Origin: an uncultured Pluralibacter sp.
GTDB lineage: Bacteria > Pseudomonadota > Gammaproteobacteria > Enterobacterales > Enterobacteriaceae
Reading direction: 5' to 3'
Length of the DNA: 64,000 nt
Assembly (NCBI RefSeq): GCF_913775985.1
Contig: NZ_CAJYMB010000032.1
Location: forward strand, 1-64,000
Both the position numbers and the translations under genes were made by a program. The stretch's first letter is position 1. Every line of letters starts with the position of its first letter. Below are positions 6,139 through 45,457 of the stretch, piece by piece. Under the pieces are notes generated by a model. That model ran no database searches. It was not told the origin of the DNA and saw only the letters and a program-made list of their open reading frames with translations.

Positions 6139-7475
6139 GTTCTCAGTACCGCAAAGAGTTCAAGTTCAGGCTCGCCGAGCATCCCCGGGACGTAAAACAT
6201 GCAGGTGCCGCTCTGGATCATTTCCGCGGCCAGAGGATCGGAGAGAACGAGGCTGAAATACTGGTTTTCCAGACGCAGCGGAATAGCCGCGGGGACGTGG
6301 CGCAGCGGCATCAGCGGAACGCCAACCCGGGATGAGTTGACGATGTCGCGGACGTGATCCGGGCTGCCCACCTTGCACTGGCGCGGGAACTGCTCCTGCA
6401 GTTGCGCCGCCGGCATCGGCGATCGTACGGAAAGGTAGTAGTCCGCCCCTTCCCGCAGGCGCGGATCGTGCAGCCTTGCCTGCCAAAAGTGCAGACGGGC
6501 GTCGTAGTCAAGCTCCAGCGACACCACCCGCGACGGCAGGCTGGCCTCAAGCAGATCCCCAAGCAGGTTAAACAGCGGCGGGAAAACTGCATTCAGTTGC
6601 TCATGCTGCCAGACTGGAATAGCGCTCACCTGATGGGCCAGCGAAAAGGTCAGCAGGCTGCCGGCCAGCCGGGCAAGCTCCGGATAGAGGCGCTCGGGCG
6701 GGCTTTGCGGATTGCGCTGAAACTGCCCCAGCACCGGCTCGGCGCTGTTGAGAGCGTTAAGCAGCCAGAACAGGGAGACGTCGGCGACGGCAAAATCCGC
6801 CATTCGCTCATTGCTTTCCCGGCGCATCGCCATCAGCCGTCCCAGGCGCGCGCGTAGCTGGGTCAGCAGCTGTTCAAGCTGGGTCGACAGCCAGCGGCTG
6901 CCGCGCAGCGTCAGCAGCGGAGGAAGAAAGGTCTCGTCCAGGGTCCAGACGCCCTGTGAATCCTGCTGCACGCGGGCGACAGGACAGGTCAGGTAATCGC
7001 TGTTGTCCTGACGGGCAAAGCGCAGGGTCAGTTCGGGCTGCATGACCGCAATCTGGCGAGTGTCGTCGCCAAAAGTATTGCGCACATCTCGCCAGCGCTG
7101 GCGAAAGCGTACCGGGCGCTCGGCCACCTCATCGGGCTTCAGGCAGTTGCCGCCGTTGGCCCGCAGCAGCGGAAGCGCCAGCACTACCACCGCGTCCCGG
7201 GATTCACTTTCAAGGGACAGCGCCGGCGGCAGGGCGTCAGCGTTGTCGGTATCGATCAATGTGCCGTCCTGAAAGCGAACGTGCAGGTGCCGGGCCTGCA
7301 GGCGGCCCAGCTTTAGCGCATCCGGTTCAAAAGCGGCGTCAATCATTCCCCAGGGCTGGGAAAGTCCCAGCCGGGCAATGCACTCGGCAGACCAGGCCGC
7401 TTGCGCGGCCTGCTGCTGGAAGTGCTGGGGAGAGACCATAATGCCTCTGCCCCACAACGGTTGTTCCGTTTTCAT
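6135..7475 (-). CDS. tssK: TssK baseplate subunit
   Basis: 446 residues, the usual TssK length, beginning MKTEQPLWGRGIMVSPQHFQ; the W-x-x-G-x-x-V/L-x-P-x-H-F-Q pattern is diagnostic of the family. TssK trimers connect the cytoplasmic baseplate to the TssL/TssM membrane complex. The gene lies 17 bases after tssC and overlaps tssL by four bases. Gene order tssB-tssC-tssK-tssL is typical of enterobacterial systems. Confidence 0.94.
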   Translation of the reverse strand: MKTEQPLWGRGIMVSPQHFQQQAAQAAWSAECIARLGLSQPWGMIDAAFEPDALKLGRLQARHLHVRFQDGTLIDTDNADALPPALSLESESRDAVVVLALPLLRANGGNCLKPDEVAERPVRFRQRWRDVRNTFGDDTRQIAVMQPELTLRFARQDNSDYLTCPVARVQQDSQGVWTLDETFLPPLLTLRGSRWLSTQLEQLLTQLRARLGRLMAMRRESNERMADFAVADVSLFWLLNALNSAEPVLGQFQRNPQSPPERLYPELARLAGSLLTFSLAHQVSAIPVWQHEQLNAVFPPLFNLLGDLLEASLPSRVVSLELDYDARLHFWQARLHDPRLREGADYYLSVRSPMPAAQLQEQFPRQCKVGSPDHVRDIVNSSRVGVPLMPLRHVPAAIPLRLENQYFSLVLSDPLAAEMIQSGTCMFYVPGMLGEPELELFAVLRT

Positions 7476-7492
7476 CAGCTTCCGGTCCTACG

Positions 7493-9031
7493 TTACGACT
7501 TGGCCTTCGGCATCCGCGAAACCAGCGACAGGTTGACGTCCATCCCTTCCACCTGGAAGTGCGGCACCGCGAACAGCTTCACGCGGAAGAATCCCGGGTT
7601 GTCCTCGATGTCTTCCACCACCACCTTCGCATCGCGCAGCGGATGTGACGCCTGCAGCGCGTCGCCCGGATCGGTCATCTCCGTTACCAGGCTGCGCACC
7701 CAGGTGTTCAGCTCCAGCTCCAGCAGGCGCCGGTCCTTGGTCGAGCCGATGTTTTCGCGCTGGATTATTTTCAGGTAGTGCGCGATGCGCGACAGCAGGA
7801 AAATGTACGGCAGCCGCGCGTTGATGCGGCTGTTTGCCGTCGCCTCCGGGGTATCGTACAGCGCCGCCTTCTGGGTCGAGTTCGCCGAGAAGAAGCACGC
7901 GTAGTCCCGGTTCTTGTAGTACGACAGCGGGATGAAGCCCAGGTTGGCGAACTCGAACTCGCGGGTCTCCGGTATCATCACCTCGCTCGGGATTTTCACC
8001 TGGTTGCCGGTGCCGAGGTCGTACAGATGAATCGGCAGGTCCTGCACCGCACCGCCCGCCTGCGGGCCGCGTATCTGCACGCACCAGCCGTTGTTGATGA
8101 AGCTCTTCACCATGTTGGCCGCAAAGGCGAACGAGGCGTTGGTCCACAGGTATTTGTCGTGGTCCGGGCCCTTCACCTCTTCCACGTAGTTGAAGCTGCG
8201 CACCGGCACCGTGTCCGGTCCGTACGGCAGGCGGCCCAGCACCCGCGGCATCACCAGCCCCAGGTAGCGCGAGTCGTCCGTGTCGCGGAACGTCTTCCAC
8301 TTGATGTATTCGGCACGGTCAAAGTAGTTGCCGATGTCCTTGATGGCCGCCACCTCCTCCATCGAGTCCTTGAGGAAAAATTTCGGCCCGGCGGAGCCGA
8401 TAAACGGCATGTGCGCCGCGGCGGACACCTTCGAGATGTTGCGCATCAGCGCCACGTCCTGGGCCGAGGCGTCGAACTCGTAGGCCGAAATCACCGCCGC
8501 AATCGGCTCGCCGCCCGGGGTGTCGTACTCGTCGATGTAGGTGTGCTTGTACAGTCCGGACTGGATAATCTCCGGCGAGTCCTCGAAGTCCTGGCGCAGG
8601 TCGTCCTTCGACATGTCCAGCAGCTCCACCCGCACGTTCTGGCGGAAGTCGGTTTTGTCCACCAGCGACTTCACCCCGCGCCACAGGCTCTCCACCGCCT
8701 GAAATTCTTCATGGTGCATTACCGCGTCCAGCTGGCGGCTAATCTGCCAGTCCAGCTCGGCGATGTGGTGATCAATCAGGGTTTTGTCGAGCTTCTCCAC
8801 CTTCGCCCCGGCCTTGCTCAGGCACTCGAGGAACACCTGCATCCCGGCGGTCAGGCGCTCGTCGGCGCTGGCGTCGGACATCGCCTGCGCGTCCTGCCAG
8901 ACGTCCAGCGCGCTCAGCCCGGAGACCGGGTGCAGGTTGATTTTTTCAAACAGCGAGGCGTACACGCCGCCCGCCGGACGTTCGAGAACCACGCTTTCGC
9001 TGCCGGAAGCGTTTTCATTTTGTACAGACAT
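7493..9031 (-). CDS. tssC: TssC (VipB/ImpC) contractile sheath large subunit
   Basis: 512 residues with conserved TssC text: FVDKTDFRQNVRVELL-type region, PFIGSAGPKFF, and the C-terminal FRVKLFAVPHFQVEGM. It forms the contractile sheath with TssB. The frame has an ATG at 9037, but the one at 9031 (MSVQNENASG) is preferred because AAGGA sits seven bases upstream of it and directly abuts the earlier one. It is 39 bases after tssB. Confidence 0.95.
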   Translation of the reverse strand: MSVQNENASGSESVVLERPAGGVYASLFEKINLHPVSGLSALDVWQDAQAMSDASADERLTAGMQVFLECLSKAGAKVEKLDKTLIDHHIAELDWQISRQLDAVMHHEEFQAVESLWRGVKSLVDKTDFRQNVRVELLDMSKDDLRQDFEDSPEIIQSGLYKHTYIDEYDTPGGEPIAAVISAYEFDASAQDVALMRNISKVSAAAHMPFIGSAGPKFFLKDSMEEVAAIKDIGNYFDRAEYIKWKTFRDTDDSRYLGLVMPRVLGRLPYGPDTVPVRSFNYVEEVKGPDHDKYLWTNASFAFAANMVKSFINNGWCVQIRGPQAGGAVQDLPIHLYDLGTGNQVKIPSEVMIPETREFEFANLGFIPLSYYKNRDYACFFSANSTQKAALYDTPEATANSRINARLPYIFLLSRIAHYLKIIQRENIGSTKDRRLLELELNTWVRSLVTEMTDPGDALQASHPLRDAKVVVEDIEDNPGFFRVKLFAVPHFQVEGMDVNLSLVSRMPKAKS

Positions 9032-34199: not shown

Positions 34200-34490
34200 T
34201 CAGTCAAAATACTGTCCCAGCGTATTGAATACCCCCGGATCGCTCTGGTGGCGGATAACCTGGCTGACGTCTTCCAGCTTGTCTATCTGGCTAATCATCT
34301 GCTCCAGCCGCGTGTCGTTGTTGACCAGCAGCCAGATGCGGCTGCGGTCGCTGTGCTGGATCGGCAGGCAGAGAATACCCTCAACGTTGAAGGCCCGGCG
34401 GGCGAACAGGCCGCAGACGTGGGTCATTACCCCCGGATGGTTGCGGACAGTTAGCTCAAGAATAACGTTGTCATGAGTCGCGTTTTGCAT
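34200..34490 (-). CDS. ilvN: Acetolactate synthase I small (regulatory) subunit
   Basis: 96 residues: a single ACT domain beginning [20 protein letters not shown]. It binds valine and confers feedback inhibition on IlvB. It is three bases downstream of ilvB and therefore in the ivbL-ilvBN operon. Confidence 0.97.
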
Positions 34491-34493
34491 GGC

Positions 34494-36209
34494 TTATTCC
34501 CCCACCATTTCAGTATTTGCCGCACCCGGCGGCACCATCGGCCAGACTTTTTGTTCAGGATCGATCCTGACGTGAATTAACGCCGGGCCGGGACGCGAGA
34601 TAATCGCCTGCAGCGCCGCGTGCGGATCGGCTTCGGCATTAAGATCGCAAGTTTGCAGGCCAAATCCGGCGGCAATCTGCATAAAGTTGATGGTGCCGGG
34701 ATAGGTCGCGGCGAACACGCCCTGCTGGTAGAACAGGCTCTGCTGCTGGTGCACCAGCCCCAGGGCCTGGTTGTTCATCAGGATAATTTTTACATCGAGC
34801 TGGTTTTCCGCCGCGGTCGCCATCTCCTGAATGTTCATCATCAGGCTGCCGTCACCGGAGAAGCAGATAACCTTGCGGTGCGGGTTCGCCAGCGCCGCGC
34901 CGACGGCGGCGGGCAGGCCAAATCCCATAGTGCCGAGGCCGCCGGAGGTGAGCCACTGGCGCGGGCGGTTCAGCGGATAGGCCTGGGCGGTCCACATCTG
35001 GTGCTGGCCGACGTCGGTGCTGATAATCGCCTCGTCGTCCACGCAGGCGGCAACCGCGTTAATCAGCCCGTAGTGGCTCAGGGGATCGCGCTCCTGAGCG
35101 ATAGCGGAGGGAAATTCCTGCTGCAGGTCAGAAACCAGCTGGCGCCATTCGGCACGCGGCCGGGCTTCAATCAGCGGGATCAGCTGATCCAATACTTCGC
35201 CAACATCCGCCTGCATCGCCACGTGCGGCTGCTTGATTTTGCCCAGCTCGGCGCGGTCGATATCCACGTGGATGATTTTGGCATTCGGGCAAAATTCCGC
35301 GGTTTTGCCGATCGCCCGGTCATCAAAACGCGCCCCCAGCACAATCAACAAATCTGACTCCTGCAAAATGTAGTTGGTGCTGCGCGCGCCGTGCATCCCG
35401 AGCATGCCCAGCGACAGCGGATGCGCCTTGGGCAGCATACCGAGCGCCATCAGCGTCATGGTGGTGGGCAGGTTCGCTTTTTCCGCCAGCGTGCGGATCT
35501 GCGCCGGGGCGTTGATCACCCCGCCGCCCAGATAGAGCACCGGGCGCCGGGCAGCGTTAATCATCGCCGCCGCCGCGCGCACGTCGGCAAGATCGAATAC
35601 CGGCGCCGGGGCTTTGCAGCCGGGCATCGGCAGATCGGTGATGTCGATTTCCGCCGTCTGCACGTCCTTAGGAATATCTATCCACACCGGCCCCGGACGC
35701 CCGGACTGGGCGATGCGGAAAGCGTCGCTCATCACCTGCGGAAGCTCGCTGATGTGGCGCACTAAGTAGTTGTGTTTGGTGATGGGGATAGAGATGCCGT
35801 AGGTATCCACTTCCTGGAACGCATCGGTACCAATCATTGAAGCCGGCACCTGTCCGGTAATACACACCAGCGGAATCGAGTCGAGCCGCGCGTCGGCAAT
35901 GGCGGTCACCAGGTTAGTGGCGCCCGGCCCGCTGCAGGCGATGCACACCGCCGGTTTACCCTGGGTGCGCGCCATGCCCTGGGCGATAAAGCCCGCGCCC
36001 TGCTCGTGGCGGGCCAGCACGTGACGAATCTGGCTGCTCTGGCTCAGGGCATCGTACAGCGGCAGCACCGTGCCGCCGGGGATACCGGCAACGGTGGTAA
36101 TACCCTGGCGCTCGAGTAAATGAACGATTAACTGCGCGCCGGTAAAGCGCTTTGCCTGCGGGGCAGGTCGTGACGGTGCGGTGCCCGACATTGTGTCCGA
36201 AGTTGCCAT
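34494..36209 (-). CDS. ilvB: Acetolactate synthase I large (catalytic) subunit
   Basis: 571 residues. It joins two pyruvate molecules, or pyruvate and 2-oxobutanoate, in branched-chain amino-acid synthesis, using thiamine diphosphate, Mg2+ and FAD. Visible are the catalytic Glu region (VHLLERQGITTVAGIPGG then HEQGAGFIAQG) and the ThDP motif GDGSLMMN...NN near residue 453. The frame is open to 36344, but the start at 36209 has GGACTGGAG before it and matches IlvB. Confidence 0.97.
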   Translation of the reverse strand: MATSDTMSGTAPSRPAPQAKRFTGAQLIVHLLERQGITTVAGIPGGTVLPLYDALSQSSQIRHVLARHEQGAGFIAQGMARTQGKPAVCIACSGPGATNLVTAIADARLDSIPLVCITGQVPASMIGTDAFQEVDTYGISIPITKHNYLVRHISELPQVMSDAFRIAQSGRPGPVWIDIPKDVQTAEIDITDLPMPGCKAPAPVFDLADVRAAAAMINAARRPVLYLGGGVINAPAQIRTLAEKANLPTTMTLMALGMLPKAHPLSLGMLGMHGARSTNYILQESDLLIVLGARFDDRAIGKTAEFCPNAKIIHVDIDRAELGKIKQPHVAMQADVGEVLDQLIPLIEARPRAEWRQLVSDLQQEFPSAIAQERDPLSHYGLINAVAACVDDEAIISTDVGQHQMWTAQAYPLNRPRQWLTSGGLGTMGFGLPAAVGAALANPHRKVICFSGDGSLMMNIQEMATAAENQLDVKIILMNNQALGLVHQQQSLFYQQGVFAATYPGTINFMQIAAGFGLQTCDLNAEADPHAALQAIISRPGPALIHVRIDPEQKVWPMVPPGAANTEMVGE

Positions 36210-36256
36210 GCTCCAGTCCTTTTTATTCTGGGCCGACTTTCCGGGGGGCGTCTTAA

Positions 36257-36292
36257 TAAAAAACCCCGCCCGGTTTGCGCCGGCGGGGTTTT
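36257..36292 (-). terminator. ilvBN attenuator
   Basis: On the minus strand AAAACCCCGCC pairs with GGCGGGGTTTT and six T residues run on. It lies 21 bases after the ivbL stop codon and before ilvB: the attenuation terminator controlled by translation of the Val/Leu-rich leader. Confidence 0.92.
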
Positions 36293-36312
36293 GGAATCGT
36301 GTGTTCCGGACC

Positions 36313-36411
36313 CTACGGCGCGTTGCCGACGACCACCACCACACGCACGACGACTACCGCGGCGGAGTGCGCGGTAAGTAGTAGGTTCTGTGCGTTGCGG
36401 ATAGCGTTCAT
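36313..36411 (-). CDS. ivbL: IvbL leader peptide
   Basis: 32 residues reading MNAIRNAQNLL, then LTAHSAAVVVVRVVVVVGNA and a final P. There are nine valines in ten residues around one Arg, plus three leucines; the VVVVRVVVVVGNAP ending is the E. coli IvbL ending. Ribosome stalling at valine or leucine codons prevents formation of the attenuator just downstream. Found by reading the minus strand before ilvB. Confidence 0.95.
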   Translation of the reverse strand: MNAIRNAQNLLLTAHSAAVVVVRVVVVVGNAP

Positions 36412-36474: not shown

Positions 36475-36586
36475 TGAAATTATCGGGCAGCATGGAAAAA
36501 GAGGATAAAGATCGCGTGCCGCCGCCGCTGCGCACCAAATCGTGCCGCTGATAGCGATCCGCGCAGAATTAAAAAAGCTAAAAGGG

Positions 36587-36619
36587 TCAGTTTGGTTATC
36601 GAAAATTATTGTACGTTAA
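36587..36619 (+). repeat. Left copy of a 33-bp inverted repeat bounding the AT-rich island
   Basis: It begins TCAGTTTGG, ends GTACGTTAA, and contains ATCGAAAATTATT. The right copy at 41883-41915 is its reverse complement with one mismatch (36596). Similarity extends weakly outward (GGG before TCAG). The repeats face inward and enclose the LacI/kinase/EIIC/epimerase genes. Confidence 0.85.
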
Positions 36620-36811
36620 AGTTGTTGTTTGACTTTTCGACTTTAGATGGCCTCAGCCGGAAACTCACCGAAACATTATATGTTATTGTTTTTAATGATA
36701 TAATTTCATATAAGGTTGATGTACACCCAGCCTAACGGCAACAAATGTGATAGCAGTCACTCGTTGATCTCTGCCCCTTTACGCTTTAAGGCATAGACCG
36801 CTCTGTACGTA

Positions 36812-36938
36812 TATACCCTAAATAATTCGAGTTGCTTGAAGGCGGCAAATGAGTGAATCCACGGGAGCTTGACTTTCGTAAGTCACCGGGGTGAACGAGC
36901 GCAGCCAACGCACAAGCAGCTTAAGTATAACGGGTATA
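36812..36938. repeat. ERIC element (enterobacterial repetitive intergenic consensus)
   Basis: A full-length 127-bp ERIC with terminal TATACCC/GGGTATA, AATAATTCGAGTTGC, and the core GGGAGCTTGAC...GTAAGTCACCGGGGTGA. ERICs are non-autonomous, MITE-like repeats that fold into long hairpins. This copy is intergenic, inside the inverted-repeat island. Confidence 0.93.
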
Positions 36939-37448
36939 GACTGTATTCCACAGGGATATGGCAGTTGTCTGGAGCGTTAGTCCACTGGCGTGATAGCTCT
37001 AATTTCGGTCCTTGATTTCACCCAAACAGTGTAGGAATAGCGCGCGCGAGCGCGTTACGGACTTCTCCTTTATTCAGCTTCGCCTGTACCTGCCAACAAA
37101 GTGCCGGAGCGCGGAGCCAGTCAAGCATAAGCAGATGTAGCGACATGACGTATTTCCTCCAGACTGGCAACAAATTCAGTCCATAGGAGTATATTTTCTA
37201 TTACAAGCCATGGATCATCCTCAGCAGTCTGCTTTCAAGATAGTCACTATGCTGCTGGCCTCGGTTTGGGGTAATCAATGGGCATTACCGCATTAACGAC
37301 TGATGGCCGCACCTGCCTCTCACCTTTGATGATCTTATTGTGATGGTTATCAAAAAAATGAAATGCCAATAATCTTTGATTATCATGTTTTGTACCAGAA
37401 TTTCAGAGGGTTGGGTGGAGTACGTCCACTTATCCCTCTGAACACTAA
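36939..37448. other. Gene-poor stretch before the LacI gene
   Basis: Apart from a possible 42-codon reading frame (37018-37146, minus strand), no gene is credible. The stretch holds two inverted repeats: GGTAAT/ATTACC (37271-37290) and CAGAGGG/CCCTCTG (37404-37440), the latter just upstream of the LacI promoter. The 75-codon open frame crossing the LacI start on the minus strand has no ribosome site or recognisable content. The composition is patchy and may include remnants of lost mobile DNA, but I recognise no transposase fragment. Confidence 0.5.
37018..37146 (-). CDS. Possible small protein, 42 residues
   Basis: Reads MSLHLLMLDWLRAPALCWQV, then QAKLNKGEVRNALARAIPTL and FG. A strong ribosome site (CTGGAGGAAATACGTC) directly precedes the ATG, which is the main reason to list it. 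The N-terminal half is amphipathic or hydrophobic, the C-terminal half basic. I do not recognise a family. It could be a small regulatory or toxin-like peptide, or a chance frame; no clear promoter was identified. Confidence 0.3.
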   Translation of the reverse strand: MSLHLLMLDWLRAPALCWQVQAKLNKGEVRNALARAIPTLFG

Positions 37449-37494
37449 TTGACATCAAATCATCACCGGTAGTATTGTTTCGTAACCGGTTACG
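37449..37494 (+). promoter_or_regulatory. Promoter and autoregulatory LacI-type operator
   Basis: TTGACA (37449-37454), 18-base spacer, then TATTGT (37473-37478) form a plausible sigma-70 promoter. The perfect 14-base palindrome CGTAACCGGTTACG (37481-37494), with the central CG typical of LacI-family operators, covers the predicted start of transcription and ends just before the GGAGAAA ribosome site. Binding of the downstream LacI protein here would block the whole operon. Confidence 0.72.
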
Positions 37495-37502
37495 GAGAAA
37501 GA

Positions 37503-38498
37503 ATGACAACAATTAAAGATATAGCAAAAAAAGCCGGGGTATCCGTAGCAACTGTATCTAGAGCAATAAACAACAAAAGTGATATCAGCGAAGATATGCG
37601 GAAGTACATTCTGAAAATTATCGACGATATGGGCTACGTACCGAATTCCATAGCAAAAAACCTGTCCCATGGCCGGACGAACCTTATTGCCGTCATGCTG
37701 CCGACGTTAAACAACCAGTTCTTTTCGGATTTATTATCTGAAATAGAGAAAGAAGCTAACAAAAACGGGTATAACACACTGTTCTTTAATAGCAGTGATG
37801 ATCGGACCAAGGTTGAATATTACCTTAACTCGATGCGCAGTAATTTTGTCTGCGGAGCCATAATTAACTCACTGTCGGTCACCGGTAAGGATCTGGAGAA
37901 TCTCGAAAAGAATGGTATTAAAACCATCACAATAGACCGTTCAGGCTCTGATCCTCATTATTCATCAGTGACGGTAGACCATAGAATTGGTGGCAGGTTA
38001 GCGACAGAACACCTGTTTGAAAGAGGCTGTGTAAATCCGATCATGCTTTCGGGGACGCCAGATGATGAGATTGCGAATGAGCGTATGGCGGGATTTTCTG
38101 AGGTTGTATCATCAAAAACAGGTCGTAAAAATATTACCGTCGTCCACAGTGATTTAACATCGACGGGTGGATATCATGCCTTTATGGAATTTATTAATAA
38201 AGGTGAAAAATTTGACGGTTTATTCTGTTCGAACGATGCCATGGCATTCGGCGCCATCCGTGCCTGTATCGACTCAGGAATAAAAGTACCCGATGATGTG
38301 CTGGTGGTTGGATACGATAATTCATCGATGGATGAGATTTTTATACCAAGGCTAAGTTCGATAAATCAGCATCTAAATAAAATTGGCCAACTCTCAATTA
38401 AAAGCATGATTGAGCTCATCAATGGTAAAGCTGAAATTAAGCATTTAATTATCACACCAGAACTAGTTATAAGAGAATCAACCTTCAAACGAGAATAG
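37503..38498 (+). CDS. LacI-family transcriptional regulator
   Basis: 331 residues: HTH TTIKDIAKKAGVSVATVSRA at 2-21, a hinge helix near NSIAKNLSHG, and a ribose-binding-protein-like sensor domain (FDGLFCSNDAMAFGA, then PDDVLVVGYDN). It is first in the operon with the kinase, EIIC and epimerase genes and probably represses it in the absence of the sugar. Low GC and the use of rarer codons (AGA, ATA) set it apart from the high-GC flanks, suggesting transfer. Confidence 0.9.
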   Translation: MTTIKDIAKKAGVSVATVSRAINNKSDISEDMRKYILKIIDDMGYVPNSIAKNLSHGRTNLIAVMLPTLNNQFFSDLLSEIEKEANKNGYNTLFFNSSDDRTKVEYYLNSMRSNFVCGAIINSLSVTGKDLENLEKNGIKTITIDRSGSDPHYSSVTVDHRIGGRLATEHLFERGCVNPIMLSGTPDDEIANERMAGFSEVVSSKTGRKNITVVHSDLTSTGGYHAFMEFINKGEKFDGLFCSNDAMAFGAIRACIDSGIKVPDDVLVVGYDNSSMDEIFIPRLSSINQHLNKIGQLSIKSMIELINGKAEIKHLIITPELVIRESTFKRE

Positions 38499-38513
38499 AA
38501 ATAAGGAGTCATT

Positions 38514-39437
38514 ATGTACGATATCGTCGTCATGGGCAGTATTAATATGGATGTGATTGTGAACTGCCATGAATTTCCAAAGAGTGGAGATAATACATTC
38601 TGTAAATCCATTCAGATGACAGCCGGCGGGAAAGGCAATAATCAAGCGGTCAGCGCCGCCCGTTACGGAAAAAAAGTCTGTTTTATTGGCTGTATTGGTG
38701 ATGATGATGCCGGACGTCAGCTGCGTCAGAATCTAAAAAAACGCCGGATTGACGATTCGTACATGATCGTAAAAGAAGGGGCGAAAACGGGCTCCTGTGT
38801 AGGTCTGGTTGAGCCGAGTGGTGATAACACACTGTTGGTGAACCTCGGCGCCAACTTCGCTTTCGGTCCGGAAGATGTCAGCAAAGCACTGGAAGAGATC
38901 AGCGGGAAGATCCTGCTGATTCAGATGGAAACCAGCCAGGAATCCGTCCTTGCTGCCATGCGAATGGGACGTGCAAAAGGCATGTTTGTAATCCTGGACC
39001 CGGCACCGGTACAGGGCATTAATCCTGAATGCTTCCCTTATGCTGATTTAATTGTTCCGAATAGCAGTGAAACCCATCATATTACCGGTGTTACCGTGAA
39101 TGATGAAAAAAGTGCACTGGAAGCCGCAAAAATCATTTATAAAATGGGAGTAAAAAACGTCATTATTAAAATGGGTGGTGATGGTTGCCTGCTTTATCAG
39201 AATGAAAAATCCGTCTTTATTCCAGCACTGAGAGTTAATGCAGTCGATACTGTCGGTGCGGGTGATTGTTTTGCCGGAGCGCTAGCCAATTATCTAATCG
39301 ACGACGAAAATAATATAGAAGATGCTATCCGATTTGCACAGGTTGTCGCTGGCATTAAAGTTTCAAGGGCAGGTGGTCATGATGCGATCCCGGCGATGGA
39401 TGAAGTGAAAGCCGTTATCGAAAGTATTACTGCCTGA
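38514..39437 (+). CDS. Ribokinase-like PfkB-family sugar kinase
   Basis: 307 residues. The N-terminal signature GGKGNNQAVSAARYG and the C-terminal DTVGAGDCFAGALANYL with the catalytic Asp are both intact; MGSINMDVIV is the ribokinase start. It phosphorylates a sugar in the cytosol with ATP. The substrate is not evident: ribose, allulose and other ketoses are possible. It lies 15 bases after the LacI gene with AAGGAG. A cytosolic kinase beside an EIIC is unusual, because a complete PTS would deliver phosphorylated sugar. Confidence 0.87.
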   Translation: MYDIVVMGSINMDVIVNCHEFPKSGDNTFCKSIQMTAGGKGNNQAVSAARYGKKVCFIGCIGDDDAGRQLRQNLKKRRIDDSYMIVKEGAKTGSCVGLVEPSGDNTLLVNLGANFAFGPEDVSKALEEISGKILLIQMETSQESVLAAMRMGRAKGMFVILDPAPVQGINPECFPYADLIVPNSSETHHITGVTVNDEKSALEAAKIIYKMGVKNVIIKMGGDGCLLYQNEKSVFIPALRVNAVDTVGAGDCFAGALANYLIDDENNIEDAIRFAQVVAGIKVSRAGGHDAIPAMDEVKAVIESITA

Positions 39438-39500
39438 TTAAACAACCAATAATATTAACTCTGTATTAACTATTCCTGTTATTCAGGAAGGGTGGGCTAC

Positions 39501-40922
39501 ATGCTTTCGCAATTAAATTCATATTTCTCATCGTTTATATCGTTGGGTGCACCGGCAATGATGTTTTTCATCATTACGCTACTTTCATTGTTGTTTCGTG
39601 TAAAAATATCAAAAGCCCTCGAAGGAGGGATTCTGATGGCGGTTGCCCTGACCGGAATGGGGGCTGTTATTTCATTATTAACCGGGGCATTTGCACCGGC
39701 GCTGAATAAATTCGTTGAATCAACCGGGGTTTCTCTCTCAATTACGGACCTGGGGTGGGCCCCGCTGGCAGTAATCACCTGGGGTTCAATGTATACACTT
39801 TATTTCGCGACGGTCTGCATTATTATTAATGTCCTGTTGCTTTCTCTGAAGCGTGTTAAAACTCTGAACGTCGATTTGTTTAACATCTGGAACATCTCAG
39901 TGATTGGACTATTGACACTGTATTATTCAGAAAACAACCTAGTTCTGACGACGTTTGTGGTAGGTGTGATTTATATTCTGATGCTGGTTAATTCAGATGT
40001 AATGCAACCACAGATAAAAAAATTACTGAAGTATGAACAGAGTAGTATTACCACTACCGCGCACCCTTCTTTACTCATCTGTCCTCCGGTTCTGATGGTG
40101 AATGAACTTATTTCACGCTTCATTCCATTTATCGACAAGTACGATTTTGATGCAGAAAAGCTGAACGAAAAAATTGGCTTCTGGGGTTCGAAATTTGCTA
40201 TCGGCGTCTACCTTGGATTCTTTGTCGGTATTCTTGGCAAGCTGCCGATGAGCGAGTTGTTTGCGTTGGCCTTTACTGCCGGAGTCTCCCTGGAGCTGTT
40301 CAGTGCAGTCGGTAACTGGTTTGGTCCGGCTATCAAACCGTTGTCTGATGGTATTGCCAATATGATGGAGAAGCGTTTCAAAGGTCGCCAGATTTATGTA
40401 GCAATTGATTGGCCAATTCTGGCGTCCCGCGCAGAGCTGTGGGCCGTGGCGAATATCCTGGCGCCAGTGTTACTGGTGGCGGCCATTATTCTACCCGGAA
40501 ACAAAGTATTGCCACTGGGGGGGATTTTACTGACCGTACTGGCCCCAGCCTTGCTGATTATTACTCAGGGTAAGGTAATCCGTATGACCCTGATTGGGAC
40601 GGTGCTGATCCCACTATTTTTATGGGCCGCCACGCTGATTGCCGAGTTTGTAACCAGGACGTCTATCGCTATGAATAGCTTCCCAAAAGGACTCTCGCAT
40701 GACCAGCTATTCTCCTCCGTGGACTCTGATCCACTTGAAAAAATGCTTTCCATGTTAATCGCCAAAGCCAGCGTGTCTCTCGATATGCAGATGGTGGTGA
40801 TGTCTGTTATCGCGGTCGTAGTCTATCTGAGTATGTTTATTTGGTATTTCCGCCGGATGCAGCAAATTAATACGGTCCGTTTTGTATGTGATCCTTCTGT
40901 AAATTTTGAGGTGGTTAAATGA
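39501..40922 (+). CDS. GatC-type PTS EIIC protein without linked EIIA or EIIB
   Basis: 473 residues of the galactitol EIIC family, with about 11-12 hydrophobic segments, the GAPAMMFFIITLLSLLFRVK opening and FTAGVSLELFSAVGNWFGP in the middle. GatC normally works with GatA and GatB; neither is present here, and a kinase gene is. It may act as a facilitator or ion-coupled carrier for free sugar, or borrow EIIA/EIIB from elsewhere. An in-frame GTG nine bases upstream is rejected because AGGAAGG is correctly spaced for this ATG. Confidence 0.85.
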   Translation: MLSQLNSYFSSFISLGAPAMMFFIITLLSLLFRVKISKALEGGILMAVALTGMGAVISLLTGAFAPALNKFVESTGVSLSITDLGWAPLAVITWGSMYTLYFATVCIIINVLLLSLKRVKTLNVDLFNIWNISVIGLLTLYYSENNLVLTTFVVGVIYILMLVNSDVMQPQIKKLLKYEQSSITTTAHPSLLICPPVLMVNELISRFIPFIDKYDFDAEKLNEKIGFWGSKFAIGVYLGFFVGILGKLPMSELFALAFTAGVSLELFSAVGNWFGPAIKPLSDGIANMMEKRFKGRQIYVAIDWPILASRAELWAVANILAPVLLVAAIILPGNKVLPLGGILLTVLAPALLIITQGKVIRMTLIGTVLIPLFLWAATLIAEFVTRTSIAMNSFPKGLSHDQLFSSVDSDPLEKMLSMLIAKASVSLDMQMVVMSVIAVVVYLSMFIWYFRRMQQINTVRFVCDPSVNFEVVK

Positions 40923-41596
40923 GACTTTTAGGGGCATCCCTGATGTGTGCCGATTTCCTTCAACTTGGTGGGCAAATTCTGGAGCTGGAGAAAGGAGGTA
41001 TCGATTTCTATCACATCGATATCATGGATGGCCAGTTTGTCGATAATTTTGCGCTGAGCATTGATTTTATCCGTTCAATAAAACCACTGACGACGCGTCC
41101 TATTGATGTGCATCTGATGGTGGATAAACCGGAGCGCTACATTGAGCCGCTGGTCAAAGCTGGTGCGGATATTATCACTGTTCATGCCGAAGCAGTCACC
41201 CATCTGCACGGTGTGCTGAGCACCATTCGCAGTTGTGGTGTAAAAGCCGGGGTCGCACTGAATCCGTCCACAAACGTGGAATCTTTAGGATACGTAGTTG
41301 ATCTGATTGATGTGCTCCTCATTATGACCGTAAATCCAGGTTTTGCGGGGCAGAAATTCATTGAGACGATGCACGAAAAGGTTCGTTTTGCACATACCTG
41401 GCTTAAAGAGCACGGCAGTGATGCCGTCATCGAAGTTGACGGGAATATAGGTCACCACACCATTCCACCATGTGTCGCGGAGGGTGCAGGAATGTTCGTA
41501 TTGGGTACCAGTGCACTGTTCCATAACCGCGGAACGCTCACTGAAAATCTGGCGGAAACCCGGGCAATCACTGACACTGTCTCAATGGAATCATGA
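40919..41596 (+). CDS. AlsE/Rpe-family ketose-phosphate 3-epimerase
   Basis: 225 residues, a TIM barrel of the ribulose-phosphate 3-epimerase family. Metal-site motifs are YHIDIMDGQF and DVHLMVDKP, and the catalytic Asp is in VIEVDGNI. Details such as SLMCADFL and VLGTSALF look more like AlsE (allulose-6-phosphate 3-epimerase) than Rpe, whose sequences have NPGFGGQ and AGSAIF. With a sugar kinase upstream, a route ketose to ketose-phosphate to its C3 epimer is likely. The ATG overlaps the EIIC stop. Confidence 0.85.
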   Translation: MRLLGASLMCADFLQLGGQILELEKGGIDFYHIDIMDGQFVDNFALSIDFIRSIKPLTTRPIDVHLMVDKPERYIEPLVKAGADIITVHAEAVTHLHGVLSTIRSCGVKAGVALNPSTNVESLGYVVDLIDVLLIMTVNPGFAGQKFIETMHEKVRFAHTWLKEHGSDAVIEVDGNIGHHTIPPCVAEGAGMFVLGTSALFHNRGTLTENLAETRAITDTVSMES

Positions 41597-41626
41597 ATAT
41601 ATTAAGATCTCCAATGTGACCATAAT

Positions 41627-41651
41627 AAAGGCCCCTCTTTTGGGGTCTTTT
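41627..41651 (+). terminator. Intrinsic terminator of the LacI/kinase/EIIC operon
   Basis: AAAGGCCCC pairs with GGGGTCTTT across a short TCTTTT loop, and T residues follow. It lies 30 bases after the epimerase stop codon. Confidence 0.78.
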
Positions 41652-42063
41652 CAAAAAAATCGCAATTATTCCGTTCTTTCTTTTGAACAGCGTCCTGCCT
41701 TATTTCTCCCATTCCCCATAATAATGAATTGATGTTCGCATATGGAATTAAACAAAAACGCCCATCTACGATGCTTCCCGGACAGACAGATAGCAATTTC
41801 CTATCAGTCACCTTGCTGACCCATCCGCACCTCGCTCAAAATTGGCAAGCTCGACTACATCTTAGAGGTACAAAAAACCGTCTTAACGTACAATAATTTT
41901 CGATATCCAAACTGATCCCTAAGACAGCCCTCCAATAATAACTTCTGCTAACCGCCACTCCGTTTTTGCAGGCGAGATCCGCGCCTTTTGACCGCCATCA
42001 CATAAAGCAAGGTTCCCCTCTGGACTTGGCGCTGCACAGCCATTAGTTTTAGGACGTCTACCG
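41652..42063. promoter_or_regulatory. Region between the island and the bgl operon
   Basis: No gene is seen in about 410 bases. It contains the right inverted repeat (41883-41915) and must hold the bgl promoter. TTTGA-N6-TCACA at 41987-42002 resembles a CRP site (consensus TGTGA-N6-TCACA), and glucose repression of a beta-glucoside operon would be expected. I found no clear -35/-10 pair downstream of it. Confidence 0.5.
41883..41915 (-). repeat. Right copy of the 33-bp inverted repeat
   Basis: Reverse complement of the copy at 36587-36619 with 32 of 33 bases the same. On the minus strand it is preceded by GGGA rather than GGG. Just outside, TAAGA here compares with TAAAA at the left end: at best an imperfect five-base target duplication. 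Together the copies delimit 5.3 kb. Confidence 0.85.
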
Positions 42064-42088
42064 GGATTGTTACTGAACCCAGGCAAAA

Positions 42089-42091
<3 letters not shown>
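42064..42091 (+). promoter_or_regulatory. RAT: BglG-type ribonucleic antiterminator site
   Basis: GGATTGTTACTG, then AACCCA, then GGCAAAACCT: the RNA target bound by BglG/LicT-family antiterminators, almost unchanged from the E. coli bgl leader. Its last three bases are also the first three of the terminator stem that follows, so the two folds exclude each other. Sugar-dependent binding of an antiterminator would open the PTS operon. Confidence 0.92.

Positions 42092-45457
<3,366 letters not shown>

Follow-up and report, generated by a model that had tools for sequence, protein, structure and literature searches.

Variants of GatC, the enzyme IIC (EIIC) of the galactitol phosphotransferase system (PTS), that are altered at F340 are reported to carry glucose in a strain lacking ptsHI, with galactitol uptake staying PTS-dependent (PMC12089948). 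EcolC_1642, another GatC-type EIIC, is described as carrying xylose in unphosphorylated form because xylA and xylB are both needed (PMC10989795). Both are laboratory-selected side activities of complete PTSs (PMC12089948, PMC10989795). In Klebsiella pneumoniae the psicose locus KP1_RS12820-12850 includes a permease, a ribokinase-type kinase and an allulose-6-phosphate 3-epimerase, and growth on psicose was reported to be impaired by deletion of the permease (PMC6020474). Orphan 'incomplete' PTS genes have been catalogued in lactobacilli, including two galactitol-type EIICs, 23C and 24C, in Lactobacillus gasseri (PMC2848229). Here we investigate a four-gene operon within 64,000 nucleotides (nt) of an uncultured Pluralibacter sp. 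(contig NZ_CAJYMB010000032.1, positions 1 to 64,000; hereafter the window), in which a GatC-type EIIC is encoded without EIIA or EIIB and together with a LacI-type repressor, a ribokinase-type kinase and an epimerase. Has this orphan EIIC become a carrier of free sugar? Or does it still phosphorylate its substrate with components borrowed from another PTS?

Like GatABC and its GAT relatives (TC 4.A.5), the operon encodes an EIIC of family PF03611 and of the same fold, with GatC itself (9u82) as the top structure. The nearest non-orphan relatives of the orphan EIIC are EIIAB-linked GAT EIICs, 47–52% identical to it. Unlike GatABC, it has no EIIA or EIIB, is accompanied by a kinase and an epimerase, and belongs to a separate clade on a long stem. 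The Escherichia coli als operon shares with the cassette the AlsE epimerase step to fructose-6-phosphate, but has the ATP-binding cassette (ABC) importer AlsABC and the kinase AlsK, which is of the ROK type. The K. pneumoniae psicose locus, compared by its description, has the same combination of permease, ribokinase-type kinase and allulose-6-phosphate 3-epimerase, but a DeoR-type regulator and an annotated deoxyribose-phosphate-type aldolase (PMC6020474). The lactobacillar orphans are also EIIC genes without partners, but they are counted as incomplete, and the available part of that catalogue gives no kinase partner or mechanism for them (PMC2848229). With GatC and EcolC_1642 the cassette would share a GatC-type EIIC that acts without phosphoryl transfer and a soluble kinase that acts later; unlike those laboratory variants it is natural and fixed, with dedicated enzymes (PMC12089948, PMC10989795). 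It seems that nature has fixed a side activity of GatC known from the laboratory, with carrier, kinase and epimerase as one regulon. What is new is this arrangement; the PTS-derived EIIC and the enzyme families were already known. A search of open-access PubMed Central (PMC) full text, outside which subscription papers lie, found no description of this gene set.

An earlier sequence-only reading had delimited the four genes (37503-41596), noted a kinase and an AlsE-like epimerase in an operon lacking EIIA and EIIB, and proposed that the EIIC now carries free sugar and that a soluble kinase has taken over the phosphorylation. Its coordinates and gene calls are right by open reading frame (ORF) list, Pfam and NCBIfam, and the composition of the operon is borne out by domain and profile searches (Table 1). 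There is no EIIA or EIIB in the operon, and EIIA and EIIB profiles built here found none in positions 27001-52000 of the window. All four genes run in the same direction and the start of the epimerase gene overlaps the end of the EIIC gene by 4 nt. The EIIC start was placed at ATG 39501, the equivalent of which is used in the Enterobacter hormaechei record, with GTG 39492 as an alternative.

Relatives of the EIIC were collected in a scan of one genome per species, which was seeded with two peptide patterns drawn from five aligned EIICs (four orphan, one linked) and which therefore under-samples more distant EIICs. Of the 267 relatives the best 80 were kept, and these split cleanly into 19 loci (L058-L076) at 58–85% EIIC identity and 61 loci (L077-L137) at 47–52%. 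The 19, which are the closest chromosomal orphan loci, contain no EIIB (0/19) and no adjacent EIIA (0/19), and they have a kinase in 17 and an epimerase in 17; in 15 there is a LacI regulator at a distance of 6 kb or less. L066 is truncated by the end of its contig, and in L075 the EIIC stands bare next to an integrase. The 61 linked loci have an EIIB within 1.5 kb in 60 cases, the exception (L101) starting at a contig edge, and an adjacent EIIA by profile in 58, the hit in L101 being weak (1e-5) and probably a regulator. In none of the 61 is there an epimerase up to 4 kb away or a LacI regulator up to 6 kb away. Only adjacent EIIA genes were counted because the EIIA profile drifts onto regulators (128 hits); an EIIA match in Enterococcus raffinosus (one locus that is present in two sources, as L054 and as L072) was rejected as a WYL/HTH regulator. 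Absence of EIIB is conserved within a single clade, where it is tightly linked to a kinase and an epimerase. The survey of similar operons proposed in the sequence-only reading thus turned up a conserved system.

The same gene set is found in plasmid and E. coli copies of the cassette, where all three partner genes are present in 7/7, EIIB in 0/7 and an adjacent EIIA in 0/7. Orphan EIIC cassettes occur on plasmids, and in a tblastn search of plasmids the EIIC had matches of 98.7% in E. hormaechei and Citrobacter braakii, 67–69% in Enterococcus faecium and Enterococcus faecalis and 63.5% in staphylococci. Six annotated orphan regions each have a LacI regulator, rbsK and rpe, in varying order, and EIIA or EIIB in none; the E. 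raffinosus region is unannotated and its ORFs hold the same genes. The EIIC of Enterococcus gilvus, 50% identical, has both EIIA and EIIB. Of 5,426 E. coli genomes, 10 have a piece of the cassette and 3 have the whole of it in one place, the other 7 of the 10 (including records NZ_CP047574, NZ_CP082101 and NZ_CP101916) holding a partial cassette only. Among 392 genomes of the window's family, a close EIIC copy is present only in the window's own genome and in one other (G011, 89%), and the next best match is 33%.

In a maximum-likelihood tree of 96 EIICs, a quick tree with support from the Shimodaira-Hasegawa approximate likelihood ratio test (SH-aLRT) only, the 27 orphan rows form one clade with a support of 100 and a stem of 1.41 changes per column. 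On this tree a single change accounts for the orphan label, against a mean of 23.8 for shuffled labels. Members of the clade come from Enterobacterales, the alphaproteobacterium Bartonella tamiae, many Bacilli and one actinobacterial bin. One of the alignments, A4, was made without L073.

The score of the EIIC against the galactitol IIC model TIGR00827 is 187.6 bits, far under the cut-off of 542.2, so it is not a galactitol EIIC proper. Its AlphaFold2 model (predicted local distance difference test 79.9, predicted template modelling score 0.81) matches best 9u82, a Leminorella grimontii GatC structure solved with D-xylose present (Z 34.7 over 443 residues, root mean square deviation 3.9), and also matches UlaA (4rp8, Z 22.3). 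The GatC/UlaA elevator fold is therefore kept in the orphan EIIC. When 21 orphan rows (six near-identical rows dropped) were compared with 62 linked rows, 18 alignment positions were fixed (at least 90%) one way in linked EIICs and another way in orphans. Four of the changes, Asp to Asn at 123, His to Asn at 131, Thr to Ala at 187 and Glu to Ser at 409, hold for 62/62 linked and 27/27 orphan rows. In UlaA the sugar is described as held by residues on HP1, TM4a, HP2, HP3, HP4 and TM9a (PMC6048161). Stretches matching these elements seem to contain several of the 18 changed sites, which is a lead. Likewise, a weak profile comparison with UlaA (probability 10%), itself a lead only, places His188 of the window's EIIC on UlaA His194.

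Taken as a whole, the locus is probably best explained as a horizontally mobile rare-sugar regulon with a free-ketose carrier EIIC, a kinase and an epimerase, the sugar probably being D-allulose. That the EIIC works independently of the PTS is very likely, and the free-sugar carrier with phosphorylation by a soluble kinase put forward earlier gains support from the comparative evidence of a single EIIB-less clade with linked kinase and epimerase. In the proposed mechanism the LacI-type repressor would bind CGTAACCGGTTACG, a site suggested by its conservation, upstream of its own start codon and, subject to a presumed inducer, would keep the operon off. Once the sugar is available, the EIIC, descended from a PTS galactitol-type EIIC, would move the free ketose across the membrane unphosphorylated, as a facilitator or as a secondary carrier. 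To judge by its family, the ribokinase-type enzyme would then phosphorylate a terminal hydroxyl with ATP, and the AlsE-type epimerase, by its family and its loop, would invert C3 of the ketose phosphate. D-allulose would in this way be converted to allulose-6-phosphate by the kinase and to fructose-6-phosphate by the epimerase.

If this is true, the orphan EIIC would be a natural example of a step between group translocation and ordinary secondary transport, two processes whose relation has been discussed for PTS permeases. An intact-PTS sister group at about 50% identity is usable for direct residue swaps. The cassette would also be a ready-made ketose importer for engineering that spares phosphoenolpyruvate. 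Additionally, allulose, which is regarded as a poorly metabolised sweetener, may become usable by gut bacteria through a mobile gene set of this kind.

Several results pull against this explanation, and they are given here together with the alternatives that they would favour. Asn at position 123 is not diagnostic alone, being present also in 13 of 31 more distant rows. At position 131 the same 31 rows have His in 19, Gly in 7 (all beside EIIA/EIIB), Ile in 2, Tyr in 2 and Asn in 1, the sole row with Asn being the orthologue of the window's EIIC in G011. The change from His131 to Asn was dropped as a universal mark of PTS loss, as seven distant PTS-linked EIICs have Gly there. The nesting of the orphan clade among EIIAB-linked EIICs rests on a branch with a support of 87, and the orphans may instead be sister to the linked ones. 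After the kinase of G011, the best kinases in 246 genomes of the family are only 37–40% identical.

Which sugar is carried? D-allulose (psicose) is, in our judgement, a reasonably likely answer, and a pentose or pentulose is possible but unlikely. As a complete alternative, the same PTS-independent carrier would take up a substrate such as D-ribose or D-ribulose, the kinase being ribokinase-like and the epimerase an Rpe that leads to xylulose-5-phosphate; this we regard as doubtful. Curated NCBIfam cut-offs favour it. The kinase passes the ribokinase model TIGR02152 marginally (Table 1), though it falls under the ribokinase equivalog NF008353 (PRK11142; 279.7 against 341 bits), and the epimerase passes the rpe model TIGR01163 (227.2 against 212.6) and falls under the AlsE equivalog NF007266 (214.6 against 271 bits). 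In addition, rbsK and rpe are the annotated names in the six annotated relatives. The kinase is 37% identical to E. coli RbsK, and Asn14, Asp16, Gly42, Lys43, Asn46, Glu143, Gly254 and Asp255 of RbsK, which we take to be ribose or catalytic contacts, are kept in all 21 rows of the clade, some of them near-copies. Against a pentose, the residues at RbsK positions 98 and 100 are not those of E. coli RbsK in 18/21 and 20/21 of these rows, respectively.

The epimerase also argues for a hexulose phosphate. TIGR01163 does not separate Rpe from AlsE, and it accepts long-loop cassette copies in other genomes too. In work of Chan et al. in 2008, one extra residue in the loop after strand 8 was reportedly tied to the preference of AlsE for hexulose-6-phosphates. 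A loop of AlsE length (G-T/S-S-x-x-F/Y) is present in 25/25 full-length cassette epimerases (21 distinct) and is lacking in E. coli Rpe. As a control, 30 loci were fetched, eight of which, without a usable ORF, were not scored; the best-scoring housekeeping Rpe of 12 carrier genomes has the short loop in 12/12, and the cassette epimerases recognised in the same run have the long loop in 8/8. Of two additional paralogues, the one in L199 has the long loop and the one in L190 the short loop. RpiB and another PTS in the L067 locus and a gene of 6-phospho-3-hexuloisomerase type in L072 also point to hexulose phosphates. The allulose-like route suggested by the sequence-only reading is therefore favoured by the AlsE-length loop and by the RpiB and second PTS of Staphylococcus simiae, and disfavoured by the curated models that call a ribokinase and an Rpe.

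Three orphan loci have further genes beside the cassette. In S. simiae (L067, 4670-11374) the locus also has RpiB and a beta-glucoside-type EIIBCA, which suggests a combined allose/allulose locus; these two could form allulose-6-phosphate from allose and so join the cassette at the epimerase. In E. raffinosus (L072, 11437-11985) a 6-phospho-3-hexuloisomerase-type gene comes right after the orphan EIIC. In Schleiferilactobacillus perolens (L069, 6082-7023) the gene next after the kinase encodes a xylose-isomerase-like TIM barrel protein, which weakly matches rhamnose isomerase and ketose 3-epimerases.

The EIIC might also still carry out group translocation, with EIIA and EIIB borrowed from another PTS and the kinase serving a second substrate or salvage, which we consider improbable. 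Other PTS_IIB proteins are present in 19/19 orphan genomes and in the window's genome, a GatB-type match of more than 55 bits is present somewhere in 12 of the 19, and cross-talk from another EIIB is possible in principle. With the GatB-type EIIB profile used here, six control genomes of the EIIAB-linked kind score 149.5–159.7 bits; rows from five of them went into the profile, and the sixth (L084), from which no row was taken, scores 149.5. In the window's genome, which is 98.55% complete, its best match is 26.5 bits, at C106, beside an EIIC that NCBIfam assigns to the ascorbate type; the two other EIIC-GAT matches in this genome (C106 and C100) are ascorbate-type with their own partners alongside. 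Seven of the 19 orphan genomes (G394, G397, G398, G399, G402, G405 and G409) score at most 30.4 bits. Since the profile gives ascorbate-type EIIBs about 25 bits, a very diverged GatB could be missed.

The clearest of those seven is B. tamiae (G394), where the single PTS_IIB domain lies within a fructose-type EIIBC, the two PTS_EIIA_2 domains belong to PtsN (164.4 bits, cut-off 138.7) and to an EIIA-HPr-EI fusion beside the fructose EIIBC, and the weak GatB-profile match is a piece of an autotransporter. Domain and profile searches of this genome found no GatA- or GatB-type partner, so the family as such cannot depend on a dedicated pair of Gat type. The dedicated unlinked pair, which the sequence-only reading had set against its own proposal, was dropped as a requirement of the family: the searches of the window's genome and of B. 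tamiae speak against it, although the GatB-type EIIBs in 12 of the 19 genomes leave that part of the objection standing. Borrowing is further opposed by the 18 sites that are fixed differently from the linked clade, and by a kinase and an epimerase kept with the EIIC across phyla, which would be redundant under group translocation.

Selection on the four genes was estimated from the ratio of nonsynonymous to synonymous substitution rates (dN/dS) in two comparisons, with the copies of E. coli (L056) and of E. hormaechei (L050); a third, with L058, was saturated at silent sites and is not used. The ratios are, respectively, 0.022 and 0.012 for the EIIC, 0.020 and 0.020 for the kinase, 0.058 and 0.041 for the epimerase and 0.089 and 0.093 for the regulator. 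With values of 0.012–0.093 across all four, the genes are real and under selection, and the EIIC is under strong purifying selection; a degenerate EIIC was dropped on these values. Between the window, Enterococcus and Staphylococcus, EIIC identity is 61–67%, higher than that of the kinase (43–49%) and the epimerase (37–48%). That the EIIC is a regulator or an exporter and not an importer, or is a decaying relic, as the whole cassette standing in one place in just 3 of the 10 matching E. coli genomes might suggest, is very improbable in view of its dN/dS and its high identity across genera.

We now return to the regulon with a free-ketose carrier and to its control. The palindrome CGTAACCGGTTACG lies directly before the start codon of the regulator. 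It was sought in 24 of the 26 orphan loci besides the window, the near-copies L051 and L057 being left out. At one mismatch or fewer, there are 26 sites in the 449 kb of these 24 loci, in 15 of them. Fifty permuted palindromes gave a mean of 0.04 sites in the same loci, and CGTAACCGGTTACG has 0 sites in the 61 linked loci (1,148 kb). The nine orphan loci without such a site are five staphylococcal ones, L073, L059, L060 and L075. These five staphylococcal loci carry TGTAACCGATTACA, which is three mismatches from CGTAACCGGTTACG, and L073 has a two-mismatch form. L060 and L075 have no operator and no LacI gene in view; L059 has no LacI gene in view and a three-mismatch operator match several kb away only. 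The operator is common to loci of Pseudomonadota, Bacillota and Actinomycetota, and therefore repressor and operator appear to have moved together between phyla.

The cassette is a conserved mobile regulon and not a one-off. In the window it lies within a segment bounded by inverted repeats (Table 1), the arms of which (36584-36631 and 41871-41918) are 85% complementary over 48 nt. Their cores (36587-36619 and 41883-41915) fit one 33-nt pattern with one free position and 0 mismatches, 0 being expected by chance, and a 23-nt repeat core occurs at two mismatches or fewer only in these two places in the window's genome. The pattern of the terminal repeats is, we presume, Tn3-like. Of 72,556 plasmid records, 3,468 carry DNA similar to part of the 101-nt stretch 41830-41930, and 61 of these cover at least 80% of it. 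The ORF list for 36584-41918 has no transposase or resolvase and no large coding-strand ORF beyond the four genes, the rest being overlapping or short. A serine recombinase lies beside one E. coli copy (L057) and a fragment of a Tn3 transposase beside another (L056). Searches of L050, L057 and G011 did not find the inverted repeats of the window. A 5-bp target duplication seen by eye, TAAAA/TAAGA, is imperfect and is not claimed. We read the segment as the passenger of a presumed Tn3-type element inserted beside acetolactate synthase genes (34200-36344).

Table 1. Positions in the window of the operon, its proposed operator and the flanking repeats
Feature	Position	Strand	Basis
Left terminal inverted repeat of inserted segment	36584..36622	+	Inner edge trimmed by eye
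Proposed LacI-type operator, perfect 14-nt palindrome CGTAACCGGTTACG	37481..37494	.	Palindrome scan and conservation
LacI/RbsR-type repressor	37503..38498	+	Pfam LacI 68 bits and Peripla_BP_3; best NCBIfam models RbsR-type, all under cut-off
RbsK-like PfkB sugar kinase	38514..39437	+	PF00294 228 bits; TIGR02152 (ribokinase) 301.4 against cut-off 299.65
Orphan GatC-type EIIC, proposed free-sugar carrier	39501..40922	+	PF03611 168 bits against cut-off 24.2; AlphaFold2 model
Proposed AlsE-type hexulose-6-phosphate 3-epimerase	40919..41596	+	PF00834 (Ribul_P_3_epim) 219.9 bits; AlsE-length loop after strand 8
Right terminal inverted repeat	41880..41918	-	Inner edge trimmed by eye

Another GAT EIIC, 30–31% identical to that of the window, is present in three genomes of the window's family (G002, G027 and G061); loci L200, L201 and L203 hold it. 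No EIIA or EIIB match was found within the 13.5–14 kb fetched around it, the genomes not having been searched for unlinked partners. In G002 (L200, G002:C1:538500-552500) the EIIC, at 6271-7533, is the last in a gene run, and upstream of it are genes for a DhnA-type aldolase, a glycerol-3-phosphate-antiterminator-like protein, an FGGY-family kinase, an SDR and a 2-hydroxyacid dehydrogenase. The large ORFs of G027 and G061 match those of G002, the one genome examined gene by gene, in sizes and order. Since this second orphan EIIC also stands beside a kinase, the combination of orphan EIIC and soluble kinase may have arisen more than once. We hold with moderate confidence the wider view that the EIIC clade left group translocation for good, that its members became stand-alone carriers fixed by partnership with kinase and epimerase, that they form a mobile allulose regulon across phyla, and that GAT-type EIICs made the switch on two or more independent occasions, the second of which involved an FGGY kinase in the window's family.

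Elsewhere in the window's genome (L002, C100:16173-18065), an ascorbate-type EIIC with its own EIIA and EIIB is followed by another epimerase gene of the Rpe/AlsE family. In the window, promoter and terminator scans were at chance level (11 found against 10.6 expected, and 4 against 5.3). The nearest further PTS gene, at 42147-44039, encodes a glucose-superfamily EIIBCA beside a GH1 glycosidase and belongs to a different system from the orphan EIIC operon. Directly before it, at 42085-42136, a T run follows a perfect 18-nt inverted repeat; this may be a terminator or antiterminator site.

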